DNA of 64,000 nt from Gossypium raimondii (lineage: Eukaryota > Streptophyta > Magnoliopsida > Malvales > Malvaceae): NCBI RefSeq assembly GCF_025698545.1, contig NC_068570.1:59911924-59975923 (forward strand). Direction: 5' to 3'. The notes beneath the pieces were generated by a model. The model was given only the letters and a program-made list of their open reading frames with translations, made no database searches and was not told the DNA's origin. The position numbers were made by a program, and so were the translations under genes. Shown here piece by piece: positions 270 through 61,475 of the stretch. The first letter of the stretch is position 1. Each line of letters starts with the position of its first letter.

Positions 270-531
270 CCATGGGTGTCAAGTCCAAGCCCATTTTCGA
301 GCCGGCCCGAATATACCAAAAAAAGTCAATTTTACTATTTAAAAATTAATAAAATAATAAAATATTTTTTATTTGATATTATATATAATTTAAATTTAAA
401 TTTTTAAATATTTTTATTATTTACATTAAATTCAGGCCAATCTGGCCCGACCCAAAGTGTAAAAATCCTTGTCCAGGCCCGACCCAACTCGAGTCTAGCG
501 AGCGAGCTACCCGACCCTTGGACAAGTCTAC
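270..531. repeat. Remnant of GGCCC-rich hAT-type MITE
   Basis: Short blocks rich in GGCCCGACC and GAGCCGGCCCG flank an AT-rich core, and the right edge reads TTGGACAAGTCTA. This is a degenerate member of the GGCCC-rich foldback family whose better copies (5392-5824, 21054-21435) have TAGAGGTG-like ends and 8-bp target duplications. No clean target duplication is visible here. Confidence 0.5.
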
Positions 532-777
532 TACTTACATCCTAAAATAATTAGTCTAGTAAACTTGAATAGAATGGGTTGAGCTATACATTTTCCAACT
601 AATATCGGTCAGAACAAAAACTACTAAGAAAACCTACCTAGGTTTAACCCTACCTGAAACTTAACCCATAAACAAGTTTAAAATCAATTTCAAAGATCTA
701 ATTATAAATTATTTTTTGTACCAAATTGTCAAAAGTTTGTAAAAGTTAAGATCCAACTATAAAACTCTACTCATAAG

Positions 778-905
778 GCATTGGCTTGTTAGTTGAGGCG
801 GAGGCTTTGGGTTCTTTAGTTTCAGGATTTGAGTCTCACTATGCGCAATTTTTATATGTAGGTCTTCGTCCCACCATGTGTGTATGTCGTGTGTGGGTTT
901 AATTT
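778..905 (+). repeat. tRNA-like SINE fragment (family 3)
   Basis: The stretch beginning GGCTTGTTAGTTGAGGCGG resembles a Pol III A-box region. About 40 bases on, GGATTTGAGTCTCACT resembles a B box. This spacing is typical of the head of a tRNA-derived SINE. Only one copy is in the window, so the call is tentative. Confidence 0.35.
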
Positions 906-1023
906 AATTCTTTTCAATTCTTCATTCAACATACTTTATATTGATTTGATTTCACATTATAATTGGTGAAACATATATTTGTACCGTATTTGTATTTTGC
1001 ACCTAATAATTGATTAACCATTT

Positions 1024-1170
1024 TAGGCAGGAAAAATGTGGAATGGACCAAACATATTGGATAGAAGCAACAATCAATGATCCAAGTTTTCAGAGGGAAT
1101 TAATGAGATGCATACATGTGGGGTATTCAAAGGGAAATAATGAGATGTATACATGTCGGAGTATTATGTG
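1024..1170 (+). pseudogene. Relic of receptor-like kinase last exon
   Basis: After an acceptor-like TTTTAGGCAG, the plus strand encodes scattered pieces of the last exon of S-domain/DUF26-type kinases. The clearest piece is EATINDPSFQRELMRCIHVG, which matches the kinase subdomain XI block that normally continues with LLCVQ. The piece before it (AGKMWNGPNILD) is in another frame, so there is at least one frameshift, and the sequence stops matching after IHVG. A 37-bp direct duplication (units starting about 1095 and 1132) includes the IRCIHVG-coding part. No other exons are seen nearby. It is read as a decayed relative of the intact kinase gene 1.3 kb downstream. Confidence 0.6.
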
Positions 1171-1882
1171 GGTAAAACTTTGCAAATGATAGACCTATCA
1201 TACCATTTCCATGATAGTTATTAATGGCAAGCCCCCTTGATTTTTCTCTAAAAGTTATATTTATTTAGGGGCTTTTCCTTTGTTAGAACTGGTTTAATTA
1301 TGGTTTTAGTCCTTCTAATATGTAAAAAATTTAGGATTTAGTCATTTCACATTAATTTAGCATAATTTGATCCATTTATTTTTAATGGTATTAGTAGCTT
1401 CAAATTGATAAGATTGTTAGTTGTTGCCATGGATTATTTTTAAACAACTTTAAGCATTCAACTAATTTGTAAATTTATTATTGGTTGAACGTGATTGATT
1501 GTTTTTGCGTGACCTTGACCATGCGACTAAATAACAATAAAAAAAATCATGTCATCACTTTAATGACAACGATCAAATTATGTCGAATTTAAGTAGATGG
1601 ATTAAATTTCAAATTTTTGCATAGTAAAGAAATTAATATCATAATTTTACTAAAATTAATTAATTAATTAATTAATTTCAACCAATTTGATTTTTCATTT
1701 TATTTATTTTGGTTTTACTAAATTTTATAAATTTTTTTATCCCAAAGTACGATTTAAATGATTTCGATATTCATAAGTGTTGAAATCTTAAATGTGAATA
1801 ATATTATACAACATTTATAATATAATATATTAAGTATGATTATATTTACCTTCTTGTAAAAGGAAAAGTACATACCAACAAG

Positions 1883-2003
1883 TGGTCGGGTGCAATGGTA
1901 AGGCACATTGCATTCTTAAGAGGAGAATGTATATACGAACCTTGTAGACAATATTGTTAGGAGGGGCAGCCAAGGACTCTAAACATGAACCATAAAACAA
2001 AAT
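1883..2003 (+). repeat. tRNA-derived SINE (family 2)
   Basis: It begins GGGTGCAATGGTAAGGC (A-box-like) followed by CATTGCATTCTTAAGAGGAG and a degenerate B box near 1937, then TTGTTAGGAGGGGCAGCC and ...AACATGAACCATAAAAC. The same order recurs at 44408-44530 (+), 30228-30360 (-) and 43285-43418 (-), so this is a dispersed family. Confidence 0.6.
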
Positions 2004-2459
2004 CGAATCTTACTCCGACTCATGAGTTAATGGATAAGATACTCATACTTTTAGAACTCAATTAAAAAAAATTGAAATTTAGGGAACAATTTAAAATCTA
2101 GATCATGGTTTGAGGACATATGATGAAATTAACCCTTACATGATAAAACACATGAATCATGCTTAGATATGTACCAAGTTTGGTGGTGGAAGAAGCCGTG
2201 GAGAGCTAGGTTCCTTGAACAACAAATATCACTTTGTCGATATCTATTTCCATGGTCAAAAACTTCAAATCCACTAACAATTCCCATTGTAAAAAAGTGA
2301 TTTTGATGGTTCACAAAGTGGAAAGAGGGAATAATTTTCCAGACACACCCTTTGAATAATTTTACAAACTATTCTGTATTCATGTACGCATATAGTTAAC
2401 ATCTCTTTTTGTTCTAAGGAAGTAATAACAATCTCTGCAATTTCTCAAAAGAATATGAT

Positions 2460-6790
<4,331 letters not shown>

Positions 6791-53250: not shown

Positions 53251-53981
53251 GCCTACCAAATGTTTTGTTGCAACCCAAAACCAAATGTATCCCCAAATAT
53301 CATAACCCTTACTTCCAATATGCAGCTTAGTGACTATCTACTAGAGTTGAAAAAAAATAAATTGAGGGTTAAATGTGTTAATTTTTTAAAATCGAGATTA
53401 AATTGTAAAAATTATAAGTATTGAGGATTAATTTTATTATTATATTAATAAAAAAATGACAATTTTAATATCTCATTAGAGATTTAACAATAAAGTGACT
53501 AAAATTATAGATTTAACAATGAAGTACACCAAGAGCATAACTTAGCTTAATTTTTAATATAAAATTAGTAGGTTAAAATATATCATAGGTTTTTGTACTT
53601 TTTATAAATTTGGAATTTAGCCCATACTTTTATTTCTAAGAATTTAGTCCTCTACTTTTCATATTTCAAAATCCAGGTTCAATTGTTAACATTGTATTTA
53701 TTTATATTTCAATTTTTAACCAAACTAAAAATATATTTATATTGCATTTTTTTCAAATATTGAAATAAAATATGGAATTTTACAAAATGCTACTTATAGT
53801 TGACCAAATAAATAGCTTGTTTTTAAAACATCATTAAAATATGGTTTTAAAAGCAAAATATAATAAGTAAAAGGGTCTAATTTTACTACTTTTATCTCTT
53901 AGATCCATACACATTAAAAATCCTAAAAATAGGATTGAATGTGCATAAACTCACATGGAGAAAGTATCTACCACCTAATCA
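53251..53981. other. Intergenic DNA left of the MULE
   Basis: AT-rich, with fragments of foldback repeats (TTGAGGGTTAAATGTGTTAA, GAATTTAGTCCTCTACTTTT). It ends at the 9-bp target duplication AAGATGTAG. No gene was recognised. Confidence 0.4.
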
Positions 53982-53990
53982 AAGATGTAG

Positions 53991-54235
53991 GACCATTTTA
54001 CCATTAAAGATCAATTTCTAATTTTATTTAGGGAAATAGGCTAATTTTTTTAATTATTTACAAAAAAAGATCTATTTTAGCAAAACGAGTCCACGTAAGA
54101 GCGTTTTTGGGAAAAGTTTTAGCAAAACGCATCCCTAGGGGAGCGATTTTACCATGTCAGCACAAAATGCGCCCACATGGACACGCTTTGCTAACGCGGC
54201 AAAATTGCTCCCCCAGGGACGCGTTTTAGCTCGTG
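53991..54235. repeat. MULE left terminal inverted repeat
   Basis: It pairs with 60570-60803. The inner 100 bases (about 54128-54232) are themselves palindromic: AAAACGCATCCCTAGGGGAG against the inverse of CTCCCCCAGGGACGCGTTTT. The TIR thus contains its own hairpin. It is GC-richer than the surrounding DNA. Confidence 0.88.
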
Positions 54236-54239
54236 TTTT

Positions 54240-54480
54240 TTAGGGTTAGGGCTTTTTGCATGTTTAGTCCCTATAGTTTTTTGGTTTAGGGTTTTGTTAA
54301 AATAATTGAGGGGTTTTGATAGGTTTAGGGTTTAAGATTTAGGGTTTTTTTAAAATTAATTAAAATAGGTTTTTGAAATTTTAAATAAATTAATTAAATT
54401 AGAGTTTAGGGTTTTTAAGAAAATTATTTAAATTATAGTTTAGTTTTTTTTAATAATTTTGTGTTTAGGGTTTAGGGAAA
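54240..54480. repeat. Telomere-like TTTAGGG motifs in MULE
   Basis: At least six TTTAGGG or TTAGGG motifs lie in loose array (TTTAGGGTTAGGGC, GGTTTAGGGTTTAAG, ATTTAGGGTTT, GTGTTTAGGGTTTAGGG). They are irregularly spaced, so this is not a telomere tract. It may be a degenerate interstitial array or telo-box-like regulatory DNA picked up by the element. Confidence 0.6.
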
Positions 54481-54508
54481 ATTATATTGACAATATAATT
54501 TTTTTGTT

Positions 54509-55150
54509 TTTTTTCTATAGTATCTGAAAAATAATTTTGAGAAGACGGTTCTGAAAAGATAATGTAAAAAACGCTTCAAGCAGGATGCACTGTTAGCAAA
54601 ATTACTGAAAAAAGCTCCCGCGTGGATGCTCTTTTTCTATAGTAGTTCCTGAAAAAATAATTTTGAGAAGACGGTTCTGAACAAATAGTTTAAAAACGCT
54701 TCAAGTAGGATGCAATGTCAGCAAAATTACTGAAAAAAGCTCCCACGTGGACGCTCTTTTTCTACAGTAGTTCCTAAAAAAATAATTTTGAGAAGACGGT
54801 TATGAACAAATAGTGTCAAAAACATTTCAAGTAGAATGCACTGTCAATAAAATTACTGAAAAAAGCTCCCACGTGGACGCTCTTTTTCTACAGTAGTTCC
54901 TGAAAAAATAATTTTGAGAAGACGGTTCTGAACAAATAGTGTCAAAAATGCTTCAAACAGGATGCACTGTTAGCAAAATTACTGAAAAAAGCTCCCACGT
55001 GGATGCTGTTTTTCTACAGTAGCTCCTGAAAAAATAATTTTGAGAAGACGGTTCTGAACAAATAGTGTAAAAAACGCTTCAAGTAGGATGCACTGTCAGC
55101 AAAATTACTAAAAAAAGCTCCCACGTGGACGCTCTTTTTCTACAGTAGTT
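54509..55150. repeat. Five tandem 126-bp units in MULE
   Basis: Unit starts fall at about 54509, 54631, 54756, 54882 and 55008. Each unit has the order CTTTTTCTA, AATAATTTTGAGAAGACGGT, TTCAAGTAGGATGCACTGT and GCTCCCACGTGGACGCT; a sixth begins at 55134. The CCCACGTGGACGC piece resembles the TIR, so the array may have grown from subterminal DNA. It lies just upstream of the transposase remnant and could have been its promoter region. Confidence 0.85.
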
Positions 55151-55247
55151 CCTGATTGACCCTAGACTATAAATGAGCCAAATTTCATTTTCAGGTTGTA
55201 TAAGTTACAGCAAAAAAAATTAAGGCTAAGTAGAATAGAAATTGAAG

Positions 55248-56537
55248 ATGAGTGAACGTATTAGTGTTGTTATTTACTATGATGGTGAGGTCCATGACTC
55301 CGAGAATGGCATTGTTTTTTATCGAAGAACACAACATGACTGGTTTTTAACCAGAACATAGATTTGACAGAAATTCCTAAAAGAATTAGGCGTAAAATCT
55401 TCAGAATGATGCCAATGAGAGTTTCGTCTATTAAATATTGATTTTGTGCTTCGGTTGATTCAGTGGCATATGACTCATTTGATATCAAAGGTGGTCGTAG
55501 CTTGGAGGCGATGGTGCAGACTCATCTCGCTAGTAGATCACACTATCTTGAGTTATATGTACAATTTTCATCGCCAAATGAAGCATTTGCGACTTCAACA
55601 TCTACTTCTATTCGAGGGAAATACACGACCCTTGCATGACACTCTGTTAGTGGGAGGCAGAACACGGAAGCGCCCGTATTTGGTAGCAGTATGGAATACA
55701 TAACCCCTGCACGACATTCGGTTAGTGGATGGGACATGCACCTCGATGGGTCGATGTTCGATGCTGAAAATACGTACTGAGGAATGACATCAACTTCTAG
55801 TGGTTGACAACCCACATCTGATTGGAGATGTTATGAAACGTATACAAGAAGGGATGATGTACTTCCTACGACGTCCACCGACAAGGGGACCTCGTACGTT
55901 GTAGATGATGGTGGGTTGGATGATGAGTCCGATGTGGATCCACCTCGAGAGCCCAGCTCCGATGGTGCAAAAGTTGTATTATTTTCATTTAGCGGCACTA
56001 TTTTCAAAGCGAGCAGCGAGTTATAAAGGCCAAATGCAGGGAGACCGTGTATGGTGCCGGAAGGTATTGCAAGAACTTAACAAGACGAAGGCGCGAGCCA
56101 ACACCATGCACACAGTAAGTCACGATCGCGACAACCTATGGTTTTGTGTGACGAAGTTTGATAGACCGAACCAAGATATTACAGGCGGGCAATATCATGT
56201 ACACCTAAGAAATAAGACTTGAGACTATGGGATATTTGACGCACTTCGTTATCCATGCGCTCATGCAATTACAGCTTGTCAGAATCTCCGTTTGGATCCC
56301 ATGAGATATGTCGACGAAGTGTAAAAAATAAAATACATGTATAATGTGTGGAGACACGTATTCCTACCGGTCCCAAATGAACGTAAGTGGCCTCCTGTAT
56401 CGCTTGCTCCGTTTAATTTGTTACCAGATAGAGAATTGTGTCGCAAACCAAAAGGTCAACCTTGCTCGAGTAGAATACGAAACAATATGGATATCCGCGA
56501 AAGAACAAACCAACAGAAGTTGTGCTAATGGTGTAGG
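55248..56537 (+). pseudogene. MuDR-type transposase remnant of MULE
   Basis: The plus strand begins MSERISVVIYYDGEVHDSEN, the N-terminal start typical of these plant transposases, and soon breaks. Later pieces include FSKRAASYKGQMQGDRVW and the SWIM zinc-finger region at about 56205-56290 (RYPCAHAITACQNL), where the first two cysteine codons of the CxCx(n)CxH pattern are lost (one is now a stop, one is Tyr). A C-terminal zinc-knuckle start (QKLC) follows. Several stops and frame changes are present, and the central DDE catalytic domain is essentially missing between about 55800 and 55950. It can no longer act as a transposase. Confidence 0.85.
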
Positions 56538-58207
56538 TGTTAGAGTATGCTCAAATATCAATCATGAGATGGTTGTAATAACATACTTGATTTATCATGT
56601 TTATTAATATAAGGCGTTACCATTATTATTTCAGTTTATTTTCTGTGTGTATAAATAAACTGTTTTATAGTAATGTCCTGAGAATAATATGATTATTCTT
56701 AAAAGGTCCTTAGTCAAGTACTATTGTTGGCTAGGACAACAATAATGCATTAAGACTAACATGTACTTGATTGATGATAAAGAGTTGTCATTGATATGGT
56801 GTGTCAAAATCAATGCATGAATATGTATGTTAGAGAACAAAATATTGGACTGACCCGTTATGAGTATGTTTCTTCGATTATTATGTAATTGTCACAACAT
56901 TACTCAGAGTGATTAATATGTATATGATTCTCAGACTTGAGATCATCATTATCCAAACATCGTGAGTTATATATTTTGATACAGTCAAACGTACACCGTA
57001 ACTGGTTGTTCTATAAAGGCTGATGTTGGATATACCACGATCTATGTAGAAGGATAAGGTTGATCGATATAGGATAAGTCCCTCCTACATAATGAGAGTA
57101 ATAACTTAGGCCACTTGATTGAGTGAGACTAGAAATGCATGGCCATGCTCAAATAAGCTGATATGAGATGTCATATTTATTTGAATATCATAGTCTACTC
57201 AAGATATCAAGGAACATGGGATGGACTATGCAAGTGTGACTATTCCATGACTTGTGTCCAACCCAGAGATAAATGACTTAAGGATTAATACATGAAAGGC
57301 TAATCACAAAAGGTATGCCGAATCATGATTTCTTGTAACTTAGGTAGCAATGATGCATTGCTAGATGCCACTCATTGTTTGTAACATTAGAATCATTCTA
57401 GTATTACTGCTAACGTTACAAGAACCTACAGGGTCACACCCTATGGTTGAAATGAACGGAATAAAACATAGTTGGTATTGTGTTTGGTTGTCACATGAAT
57501 TAAGTTAATTGTAGAATTAATTTAATTGGGTAATCAAATATCGAACATATTATATGTACAAGGTTGTTGTACACATAATGAGAACATAGTTCTATTAATA
57601 TATGAATTTGGTTCGTATATAAATTCAAATAAATATAGTTTACCGAAATCATTATTATAATTAATGTAATTATAATTTTAGGTTTAAAATATTGTTATAT
57701 TTATTTAATTTCAATTATGATTATTATGTTCTAATAAATATTTAATGAATTATGATTCATCAAATATATATACCAATGATAAGAAGGTTAAAGTGTGTTT
57801 TTTATTAAAAACCCTAAAAAAATTAAAAATCCCATTTTTAATTTTTAAACATTTTTAAAGTGTTTTTTTTATTAAAAACCCTAAAAAAATTAAAAATCTC
57901 ATTTTTCTTTGCTTAAAAAGTCTAGCAGCAGTCAAGCAAAGTCTTCTCCAAAATAATTTTGGGGATTTCGTCTGTTCATTGCCAACTAGGTGGATTACGT
58001 AGAGGCCGAAGTCATCAAAGGTTGCGGCTTGGTTCGATAGTAGATCAGAATACTGGTTGTCGAAGCGTCGCTGTCTACTCAGTTTAAAGATTCGGTAATT
58101 TTGAAACCTTTATTTCACCCCGATTCGATCCTCGCACATGGATCCATGGTTTGGATCGCCAGATGTATTAATTTTTTCTACGTCGTGGGGGTGCCGGAGT
58201 TCCAACA
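56538..58207. mobile_element. Solo LTR of an LTR retrotransposon (fossil)
   Basis: A 1.67-kb block begins TGTTAGAG and ends TCCAACA (TG...CA ends). It is flanked by GTAGG on both sides (56533-56537 and 58208-58212), a 5-bp target duplication as made by retroviral-type integrases. No internal region, gag, pol or second LTR is present, so it is a solo LTR left by recombination. It is probably Copia-type but the family is not certain. It contains a roughly 70-bp direct duplication (about 57785-57905). It inserted into the transposase's zinc-knuckle region of the MULE and is therefore younger than the MULE. Confidence 0.82.
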
Positions 58208-58496
58208 GTAGGAACCCAGGTCATACAATTTGATCATGTCCAAATCGAAATAGTTGATAGTTGCTGTAATAAAACTATGTTGCATTATTTATATTTTATT
58301 AAAAATATAAAAATATTTAAAATATTGTCTTATTCAAAAGAACTTTTATTTTATTAAAAATATAAAAATAAATTACTATTAAAATATGAAAAACAACTTT
58401 TATTTTATTAAATGACACAATATAAAAATAGTTTGTACAAATATATTAAAAAAATCAATGTTCGTGCCGGTCGAAATCAGTGCTACATCGGGGTCG

Positions 58497-60343
58497 TCAA
58501 CGGTTACGCATTGGATTCCTTTTTGGTTCAACTTCCGGTAGCGGTTGTGGTTGTGGGTGTTGGGAGGATGACCCACCTTGATAGAATAAAGAATGTGAAG
58601 ATGTTTCCATCACCCACGGTGGAGGTGTTTGAATCCTATAAGGTGATAGGGATTGGTAATGAGAAAAGCTCCCCGACGACGCCTCGTGTGATCCCTCATG
58701 CGATGACGGCCTATATATCACCAGTTGAGTCGGAGTCATCGAAAAAAGAGATGCATCGGGCCATGCATTCCAACCTGGCATAGAACTGGAAAAAGGAAAC
58801 ATATAACGGTTAGGATATATATATAAGGGCTAGGATACTCACCTGGCATAATCTGAAGAGGTTGTGATATGGTTGTCGTCGGTTGAGGCGTTGGGCTCGA
58901 TGATTGTGTGGGCGCTGTTGATGGGCCTGTGCCGTCATCCCTATTCCTTGAATTTAAAGGGCCCCGTCATTTCTTTTCGACACGAATTTGCCGATACCTC
59001 TGCTCTTTCGACAGTAAATATGGTTTGTCATGGATTCTAAACCATGACATGTAATCCGATGCGCACGCTAACTGTAGAATGATGATCGGTTCCCAAGTAG
59101 GTATATGATCATACCAATTTTTTGACATTTCAATATATTTCGACCAGAATACCGACCAATTCGTATTTGATTATCGTAAGTCAATTTTATGCTCATCATT
59201 GAGCACCTCAGGTGCCACAGAAAATCGATTGTCGAAATCCAAATTGTTGCAACACTCTATCCTTCTGGTACATCTCCACAGTAGCATAGTTGACCAATGA
59301 GACCTTCACATGCCAAATGTTCAGATTTTGAAAGAATTCATCCATAGAAGCCGTATATCTTCAAGAGCGGTAGGTATTCTAACATAACTCGCCGAATGGT
59401 TCCACCTAATTAAATAAATTTTTAGCATACAATTATATTTTAAATGTATATAATAATTGTAAAATCTAATATAAATTTTACATCGTTATGAGTGGGAATG
59501 TATATGGGTGGTCCACTCAAGACGTAAAAATAGAAAGCGAAATTGAGCCCATTATTGTAGTAGTGATAAACAACCTCCGATTTTGGTTTTAGTTGATGGT
59601 GTCGCCCCACACATCTCTCGATACAATGTTGCCAACACGGCAGACCCCCAACTAAATTCGCCAGCTGCTCTAAAATCAATGAGTTTCAGCAGCCACTACA
59701 GATGTACGAGGTTTCGTGACAAGTTCAGCATCAGATAACCTCCAATAATATCAAGAATGTATGCCCAAGCATACCATATTTTTTCTACTTTAGTTGAATC
59801 ATTCTCCGACTTCAGAAATGTGTCTCGTAACTAACCTATCTCGATCCGACCTCCGTTAATATTATCCGAAATCGCACCCAAAAGATCGTAACATACGGCT
59901 CCTCAATCAGCAGATTGAACGGACCCGATGAGTGCGGACTCATCTACCAGCAATCCCAATTGTAACTGCACGTCCTCAAAAGTGATGGTACACTCTCCGC
60001 ATGGAAGATGGAATGTGTGCGTCTCGGGTCTCCACCTCTTTATCAATGCGCTGATGAGTTTCGGGTCCAACTTGCACCTGGCCTATAGTGGCCATGTGCC
60101 AAAAACCCGCTTCCCACAAGTAATTCTCTATCAATAGTGATGGAGGACCAGACATATTATGAATATAACATTGTAACACCCGATCTATAGACTGTTATAA
60201 AAAATTATAAAATAAAAATTAATTAAAATTACATAAATGAAAAAAATATTAAATAATATTGAAAATTTAAAATTAACCCTTACCATTTTCATTTGTTCGA
60301 AGGAGATATGTTTATGCTCGAGACGAATTAATTCTCCGGCCAT
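58497..60343 (-). pseudogene. Plant mobile domain (PMD/MAIN-like) gene of MULE
   Basis: The minus strand starts at 60343 with MAGELIRLEHKHISFEQMKM (exon 1, 60343-60284), a GTAAGG donor and an acceptor near 60196. It then shows the PMD body in pieces: YLWEAGFWHMATIG, GAVCYDLLGAISDNINGG, CGATPSTKTKIGGCLSLLQW and PEVLNDEHKIDLR. The Pro/Ser-rich tail near 58500-58800 (YRPSSHEGSHEASSG, QTPPPWVME) completes the order known for the MAIN-like, 'Ser/Thr phosphatase 7 long form homolog' proteins abundant in cotton. Several frame changes and stops break it. Intact PMD proteins (MAIN, MAIL1) are nuclear and help silence transposons; what a MULE gains by carrying one is open. It lies in convergent orientation to the transposase. 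Confidence 0.85.
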
Positions 60344-60569
60344 TGCTAACACGATCAAATATTTTTGAAATTATAAAAAAAATACTAATTCAGAAAAAAA
60401 ATTAAAGAGAGCTTTTTTGCCAAAATTAAAGAGAGCTTTGAGAAATTTAGAGAGAAATTTGAGAGAAAATTGAAGAAATAGTGTGTGAAAAAATAGGAGG
60501 GGTTTTATAAGGTTTTTTTTTTCCGTTGGACCCCCCAACGGTCAAAAAATCAAATAGCCATTGGGGAAA

Positions 60570-60803
60570 AAACAAGGGTAAAATGCGTCCCTAGGGGAGC
60601 GAGTTTGCCATGTTAGCAAAGCGCGTCCACGTGAGCGCGTTTTGTGCTGACATGGCAAAATCGCTCCCCCAGGGAAGTGTTTTGCTGAAATTTCCCCCCA
60701 AAACGCTCCTACATGAACGCGTTTTGCTTCCGGTAAATAATAATAAAAATTGGCTCATTTTCGTAAATAAAGTTGAAAATGGGCCTTTAATGGTAAAATG
60801 GTC
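60570..60803. repeat. MULE right terminal inverted repeat
   Basis: The inverse complement starts GACCATTTTACCATTAAAGG and follows the left TIR through CAGCACAAAACGCGCTCACG to CTAGGGACGCATTTTACCC. Small indels and base changes separate the two arms, indicating some age. It is palindromic internally, as is the left arm. Confidence 0.88.
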
Positions 60804-60933
60804 AAGATGTAGAGCATAAAAATATGTTGGGGTTTTGGTTAAAATCACAATTTAGTAACCATAAACAAAAATAACAACAATGAAATTTTTAGGGTTTAAA
60901 ATAAAGAAAACCCAACCTTTGAATCATCATTAG

Positions 60934-61475
60934 AGGTGATCATGGGCCGGTCGGGCCGGATTTGGGTCGAGCCTCAATAGAATTTTAGGTCTGTTTTTTA
61001 AACCCGATCTGAAAATGGGTCTAAAATTTTGTCCAAGTTCAACCTGGATAAAAATGCTACAATCCGAGCCTGGCCTGCTCGTATTAAATTTTTTTATATA
61101 AAAATAAATTTAAAAAAATATAATACATCAAATATACTAAAAATATTAAAATAAATGTTTCCTAACAAATTTAAAAATAATAATAAAATATTTATACTTA
61201 AATAATACTAAGATAGATGCAACTTAGCAAACAAATACATTTAAAATAGTAGCAATATAATAACAAAACGACACCAAAACAACAAAAGCAATAAATTTTA
61301 TTTTTTTTGTAAATTTGGGCTGAGCTTAGGCCAAAAAAGCTTACCAAATGCTCGACCCGTTTAGAAGGTAGGCCTTGTTTTTTTTTTTGCCCAAATCCAT
61401 TATTCGGGCCTATATTTTTTTCAAACTCTCTTAATTTTCAAACGGACCTGACCTGCCCCATGATTATGTCTAATG
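60934..61475. mobile_element. GGCCC-family hAT-type MITE, long form
   Basis: It starts TAGAGGTGATCATGGGCCGG and ends GCCCCATGATTATGTCTA. The core has ATACTAAAAATATTAAAATA and repeated TAGCAATATAATAAC. It lies 120 bp to the right of the MULE. The 8-base flanks ATCATCAT and ATGTTACT do not match, so the target duplication has decayed or one end has changed. Confidence 0.75.

Follow-up and report, generated by a model that had tools for sequence, protein, structure and literature searches.

A decayed Mutator-like element of Gossypium raimondii and the plant mobile domain gene of its family

Within a 64,000-nucleotide stretch of the Gossypium raimondii genome (contig NC_068570.1, positions 59,911,924 to 59,975,923; hereafter the window), we characterized a 6.8-kb unit that is almost certainly a Mutator-like element (MULE) carrying its own plant mobile domain (PMD) gene. 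Comparison with related loci (L numbers) across the assembly (750.8 Mb, 281 contigs) indicates that the PMD is a gene of the element, present inside many copies with these ends. The analysis followed up an earlier reading of this DNA made from its letters alone (the sequence-only reading).

Outline of the element and its two genes

The body of the element spans positions 53991–60803 and is bounded by perfect 9-bp duplications of AAGATGTAG, which together delimit the unit 53982–60812 (Table 1). The first 19 bases of both ends are identical, beginning GACCATTTTACC, and a repeat search returned inverted arms at 53991–54061/60733–60803 and 54079–54228/60579–60728. Matching ends together with an exact duplication are beyond chance. 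MULEs are defined by a target-site duplication of about 9 bp, and all of the hallmarks that we tested were present: a duplication of this length, terminal inverted repeats, a SWIM zinc finger and a MULE transposase encoded by the family. With the joined flanks of the element as query, the genome was matched only at the element's own locus, besides a repeat in the right flank, and no paralogous empty site was found.

The transposase of the window has stops in all three frames. Compared with L039, a 6.4-kb relative on a different chromosome whose ends are of the same kind, it is missing about 1.56 kb near 55980–55986, and the MULE catalytic part falls within this gap. Its SWIM finger is recognizable at a score below the curated cut-off; that of L039 reaches 23.3 bits, above the cut-off of 19.6. 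L039 has also kept a piece of the catalytic domain (PF10551, 20.2 bits, under the cut-off of 27.6), and PF10551 exceeds its cut-off in elements of a third subfamily (L043–L046; 59.4–64.6 bits). Transposases of a second subfamily, B, align with those of both L039 and L043–L046. Because the catalytic part is deleted and every frame contains stops, the window copy is non-autonomous, with no open transposase holding a catalytic domain.

The PMD gene lies on the minus strand and was located by tblastn with PMD open reading frames (ORFs) from other loci, including L014, L015, L022, L030 and L031. ORFs of L015, L022, L030, L031 and L036 align to parts of 60194–59484, their main pieces being 62–70% identical, and exon 1 of the window copy contains five stops and two frame-shifting indels. 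In a Pfam search of the window's own short open pieces, neither a PMD nor a MULE domain was reached, and the PMD is therefore identified through relatives; on that basis, the window holds a PMD (PF10536) convergent to a transposase inside the element's ends, the arrangement of a MULE with an antisense PMD. The sequence-only reading had proposed exact 9-bp duplications, long terminal inverted repeats starting GACCATTTTACC, a SWIM-type transposase remnant and a PMD/MAIN-like gene within one 6.8-kb unit, with both genes broken, and each of these points was borne out.

Table 1 Features of the element, in window coordinates
Feature	Position	Strand	Remarks
Left 9-bp target-site duplication, AAGATGTAG	53982–53990		Exact match to 60804–60812
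Left terminal inverted repeat, starts GACCATTTTACC	53991–54241	+	251 bases aligned with right end, 78% identity
Subterminal tandem array	54527–55155		5.0 copies of 126-bp unit; Tandem Repeats Finder (TRF) score 1062, 91% match; direct-repeat family D1
MULE transposase remnant	55248–56532	+	N-terminal part, SWIM finger, downstream remnant
SWIM zinc finger remnant	56223–56321	+	PF04434, 17.0 bits, E 0.0043, under curated cut-off 19.6
Later insertion, including 5-bp duplications	56533–58212	.	Missing from L039
PMD gene, antisense to transposase	58458–60194	-	Exon 1 about 60194–59484; later exon parts 59342–58458
Right terminal inverted repeat	60567–60803	-	Aligned with left end
Right 9-bp target-site duplication, AAGATGTAG	60804–60812		Exact match to 53982–53990

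The PMD as a standing gene of the family

Searching the genome with the element's left end gave 76 rows at 40 scored places out of 349 candidates. We used the 40 best rows, dropping 36 secondary ones, and compared them with the best 40 of 1,626 PMD-DNA candidates and the best 40 of 1,059 transposase-DNA candidates. Because the compared listings cover best matches only, the gene counts that follow are lower bounds. PMD DNA was found within 10 kb of at least 18 of the 40 end matches (best 40 of 349) and on the inner side of at least 17, including the window; one match, C12:5827336, faces away from its PMD and was excluded from the 17, which correspond to 15 different PMD places, two elements being seen from both ends. 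Transposase DNA accompanied at least 12 of the 40, and at least 26 had PMD and/or transposase on the inner side, the window being included in both counts; neither gene was present on the inner side of the remaining 14 among the matches listed. The prospect that copies with these ends never contain PMD, which the sequence-only reading had named as fatal to it, can thus be discarded.

The relative arrangement of the two genes is equally regular. Between both lists of 40, at least eight PMD–transposase pairs (window included) lie within 6 kb of each other in uniform order and orientation, seven of them 1.3–1.5 kb apart and the window pair 2.9 kb apart, the latter holding a solo long terminal repeat (LTR). 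With Pfam models (117 scored PMD hits and 150 scored MULE hits), 12 PMD hits had a MULE hit no more than 6 kb away, where chance would give 0.28 pairs; all 12 pairs were convergent, at distances of 1.97–2.49 kb.

The PMD also occurs inside three types of end. Subfamily A (window, L039, L040 and L042) has ends reading GACCATTTTACC or nearly so, with duplications that are exact in the window and L040 (ATCAAATTT) and carry one mismatch in L042 and, by eye, one in L039. Subfamily B, represented by L041, has ends GACTAATTTACC and an exact 9-bp duplication, GTGATAGAG, and subfamily C (L044 and L045) has ends GGGTTTTTTACC with exact 9-bp duplications TCACCCTTT and GTACCTATG. The PMD of L041 is 68–69% identical to those of two A copies, 58% to that of L018 and 44–47% to those of L044, L033, L035, L037 and L038. 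To sample subfamily B more widely, we took six of 150 PMD hits, spread down the list, at 7.5 kb each; beside each of the six PMD exons lay a transposase in convergent orientation that has the DBD, catalytic and SWIM parts. The only PMD-only form was L042, a 2.7-kb deletion derivative that has lost the transposase. Copies holding both genes, which the sequence-only reading had proposed to look for in intact form, exist, and none of the 13 two-gene elements (window, L039, L041, L043–L046 and L087–L092) has both genes open, as judged from ORF listings without exon-border models.

We then estimated dN/dS for the PMD in 23 copies of subfamily A (window, L039, L042 and the 20 best of the other 37 listed PMD-DNA matches) and 21 of subfamily B (L041 and 20 of the other 149 hits). 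The B copies were mostly picked for open frames, a choice that biases against stops and not against amino-acid changes. Between A and B the median was 0.256 (483 pairs; shifted frames 0.94 and 1.23), and within B it was 0.416 (210 pairs; shifted frames 1.02 and 1.17). Of the frames on the reverse strand, one yielded 0.35 for A against B, a value that we tentatively ascribe to its sharing the third codon positions; the other two gave 0.99 and 1.54. For a 150-codon, SWIM-side part of the transposase, the corresponding values were 0.236 between A and B (12 pairs, subfamily A being represented by just the window and L039; shifted frames 0.85 and 1.26) and, for B by itself, 0.409 (15 pairs; shifted frames 0.79 and 0.90). 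From these codon comparisons, purifying selection on the PMD is clear both between A and B and within B, and between subfamilies the PMD is as constrained as the tested part of the transposase (0.26 versus 0.24). The PMD is thus very probably functional cargo rather than a passenger.

Several results run counter to this picture. Among the matches listed, 23 of the 40 end matches lack an inner-side PMD, and neither PMD nor transposase appears where the DNA of L040, whose ends are the same, matches that of the window element. The six sampled B stretches, most of which break off short of the transposase-side end, yielded no ends accompanied by a duplication; of the other PMD–MULE loci, where most such stretches are too short, L043 gave no ends with a duplication and L046 no inverted repeat. 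Within subfamily A, PMD dN/dS was 0.569 (253 pairs). We do not count this value as a sign of selection, since 0.54 and 0.68 are obtained in shifted frames. The expectation of dN/dS below 1 across copies, set out in the sequence-only reading, thus held between subfamilies and within B, and in the window's own subfamily the values were indistinguishable from decay. The tree of A approaches a star shape, with long tips; exon 1 is free of stops and frame shifts in 2 of its 23 copies, and the subfamily reads as an old burst, now decaying. Codon-model estimates of omega (0.58 for A and B together, 0.67 for A and 0.52 for B) were set aside as a main result because kappa was stuck at 1.000 and terminal decay dominates.

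Remote relatives of the PMD, end arrays and other features

According to the accessible part of Hosaka et al. 2017 (PMC5735166), VANC, the anti-silencing protein of VANDAL MULEs, contains the domains DUF1985 and DUF287, and tandem repeats are frequent among its targets. When exon 1 of 14 aligned PMD members was compared with the DUF1985 model, 11 matched at E ≤ 1, the best being L038 (9.5e-5), followed by L035 (4.5e-4), the host protein L013 (0.0016), L044 of subfamily C (0.0017) and L041 of subfamily B (0.019). We take L013, the sole such host protein seen, to be MAIL2-like. Only PMD, DUF1985 and DUF7745 were families with matches in two or more of the 14 members, and none of six reversed-sequence controls matched anything. 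Against the whole genome, the DUF1985 model gave no match at E 0.001 and 148 matches at E ≤ 10 (best 150 of 389 candidates scored), of which the best had an E-value of 0.0011. The 23 best of these hits all proved to be PMD exons, three through their presence in the PMD list and 20 through fetching and comparison, and the DUF1985 match lay inside the PMD match in all 20 exons compared. These matches suggest homology between PMD and DUF1985. Within the literature that could be searched, we found no co-mention of 'DUF1985' and 'plant mobile domain'; the link is new and is the part of this analysis worth following.

The DUF1985 match has weaknesses of its own. It covers only the C-terminal half of the model (about positions 71–140) and reaches at best 22.8 bits per protein, below the curated cut-off of 35.1. 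L051 of subfamily A, L018 and the host proteins L009–L011, which represent another PMD type and are presumably single-exon host PMD proteins, gave no match at E ≤ 10. Five of the 14 members also match DUF7745 (best 7.9e-5), so DUF1985 is not the sole remote relative of PMD, and the genome-wide DUF1985 hits are related copies rather than independent events. DUF287 was found in none of five proteins from PMD second exons; the PMD proteins compared thus show neither DUF1985 at its cut-off nor DUF287, the two domains that mark VANC. DUF7745 (PF24924) is itself very abundant in the host genome, with 1,924 candidates and 118 scored places.

The tandem array of the window sits at the transposase-side end. 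Arrays with units of 120–126 bp that share stretches recur within subfamily A in L039 (2.2 copies) and L040 (3.1 and 2.1 copies), and three loci of subfamily B, L041, L087 and L090, have 2.1–2.7 copies of such units on the transposase side. Those of L044 and L045 in subfamily C have other, shorter units. These end arrays resemble VANC targets, a likeness by analogy that is tempered by two facts: tandem arrays are common in plant DNA, and some loci are without one. No array was seen in L042, nor in L088, L089, L091 and L092 within the stretch fetched, which often falls short of that end. In L040, positions 501–6382 are enclosed by the exact duplication ATCAAATTT and have inverted ends of about 830 bp that include 126-bp arrays on both sides.

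Other features of the locus were also recorded. The left end holds an imperfect palindrome of its own at 54124–54227 (about 104 bp), and a second, opposite-strand match attributable to this palindrome of the terminal repeat was seen in 32 of the 40 end matches (best 40 of 349 candidates). The right-flank repeat, at about 60906–61012, is dispersed, with matches at 38 other scored genomic places. Between the transposase and the PMD lies the solo LTR (56538–58207, 1,670 bp, TG...CA, with a GTAGG duplication on both sides), for which 40 copies were scored out of 2,457 candidates; two same-strand pairs among them, 7.1 and 8.9 kb apart, resemble full LTR elements. At 57788–57906 the LTR contains a 52-bp repeat with a spacing of 67 bp and 96% identity. 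An Rfam scan of 53500–61300 gave no match.

Proposed role, rival explanations and known systems

We read the unit in the window as a dead copy of a two-gene, MuDR-like MULE that long ago spread in a burst, and lean slightly towards an account in which its PMD would have a VANC-like role; for the function itself, by analogy with VANC, we give counter-silencing an even chance. As the comparison of copies shows, the family transposase, read in the sense direction, comprises an N-terminal part, DBD_Tnp_Mut, the MULE catalytic part, SWIM and a CCHC-like knuckle, and convergent to it lies a spliced PMD gene, which was kept under selection alongside it during the divergence of A and B. The PMD protein would act much as VANC does: made by the element, it would target that element's non-coding end regions, where tandem arrays are frequent, and keep them accessible to transcription and transposition. 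The copy in the window can make neither protein and might at most, as the sequence-only reading supposed of its ends, serve as a substrate for its relatives. A wider version, which we put forward tentatively and hold to be possible rather than probable, is that PMD belongs to the same protein superfamily as the DUF1985 part of VANC, each forming a branch of it, with the widespread antisense PMD of plant MULEs a general sequence-directed anti-silencer at the tandem arrays of the element's own ends.

Other explanations of the PMD were weighed against the same data. Maize MuDR consists of two convergent genes, mudrA and mudrB, and the present element shares that layout, whereas its second gene is a PMD. 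By this likeness, the PMD might be a transposition or integration helper comparable to mudrB, with no silencing role, which we regard as somewhat unlikely: its constraint equals that of the tested transposase part and mudrB is apparently required for integration (accessible part of PMC6446971), but the remote matches of the PMD are to DUF1985, the VANC domain, and to DUF7745. That it is instead a captured host silencing factor, acting as a decoy, as the sequence-only reading proposed, or as a dominant-negative partner of MAIN/MAIL complexes, we judge distinctly unlikely. PMD-C proteins do act in silencing and have been proposed as captured anti-silencing cargo (PMC5418596 and PMC8616336, as far as their text was accessible), and the alignment shows a conserved core common to MULE PMDs and the MAIL2-like host protein; exon 1 of the window PMD and of L041 is, however, just about 37% identical to L013. 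When host and MULE PMDs were placed in one tree, which is poorly rooted, L013 (C7:19288678-19289247) fell among the MULE PMDs with support of 84, so that the tree does not settle the direction of capture. We dropped it for that purpose because of a long branch and support of 71–84; the placement of L013 may reflect capture or domestication.

A passenger gene piece picked up by chance is very improbable. Pack-MULEs carry gene pieces without a transposase gene, whereas the window keeps a transposase remnant and both genes are present at all six sampled sister loci. MULEs do often carry gene pieces (PMC13317346 and PMC6446971, accessible parts), and no selection is seen within subfamily A, but the place and orientation of the PMD are fixed in three subfamilies and its dN/dS of 0.26 between subfamilies is lower in the true frame than in shifted ones. 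That the PMD is a host gene which by coincidence is flanked by the ends of different elements, the other outcome against which the sequence-only reading had warned, is practically negligible: an exact 9-bp duplication and matching ends enclose the whole unit, and collinear copies elsewhere refute it.

The element type and the counter-silencing idea have precedents, described here from the accessible parts of the papers. Antisense PMDs are listed for several MULE groups (MUDR, MUDRAVI2, MDR, MULE-Monocots and MULE-Solanaceae_1; Dupeyron et al. 2019, PMC6446971, Table 1), and the same paper reports 'PMD and/or DUF' in half of VANDAL members. The present family resembles these PMD groups in a transposase with SWIM and/or CCHC, a 9-bp duplication, ends of tens to hundreds of bp and an antisense PMD in many members; it differs in that the window copy is broken, and the likeness is one of features, drawn without a transposase tree. 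Ikeda et al. 2017 (PMC5418596) report two captures of PMD-C by MULEs, with transposase fusions in grasses and Amborella, and see a possible anti-silencing role in it. Our elements likewise have a PMD aboard a MULE, for which such a role is suggested, but as a separate convergent gene rather than a fusion. In eudicots, PMD-C is mainly genic (Nicolau et al. 2020, PMC7156037), and a review repeats the counter-silencing idea and calls PMD a domain of unknown function (PMC8616336). Compared with VANDAL21/Hiun (Hosaka et al. 2017, PMC5735166), the family has in common an accessory gene, a weak DUF1985 match and non-coding tandem arrays; unlike it, DUF287 is missing from the five second-exon proteins, DUF1985 stays below its cut-off and the terminal inverted repeats are long, and the anti-silencing protein VANC has as its putative counterpart here a gene known from sequence alone. 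Because Dupeyron 2019, Ikeda 2017 and the review describe them, neither the element type nor the counter-silencing idea is new, and the element in the window is an ordinary broken member of a known but little-studied kind. What is added beyond Dupeyron 2019 is one-genome counts, selection tests and the DUF1985 link.

PMD occurs in host silencing proteins and in transposons alike. If the PMDs of MULEs are VANC-like, the question of whether transposons carry PMD against silencing becomes testable by VANC-type assays, and many annotated plant 'PMD genes' may be transposon genes. A paper on tea reports 175 phased-siRNA (small interfering RNA) loci at PMD genes (PMC10673657) and one on cupuassu many PMD gene families (PMC11152179); the word MULE is missing from the accessible text of both, and the PMD genes concerned might be MULE genes. 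Should the superfamily proposal be true, MAIN/MAIL silencers, MULE PMDs and VANC anti-silencers would be related players on opposite sides of one contest.

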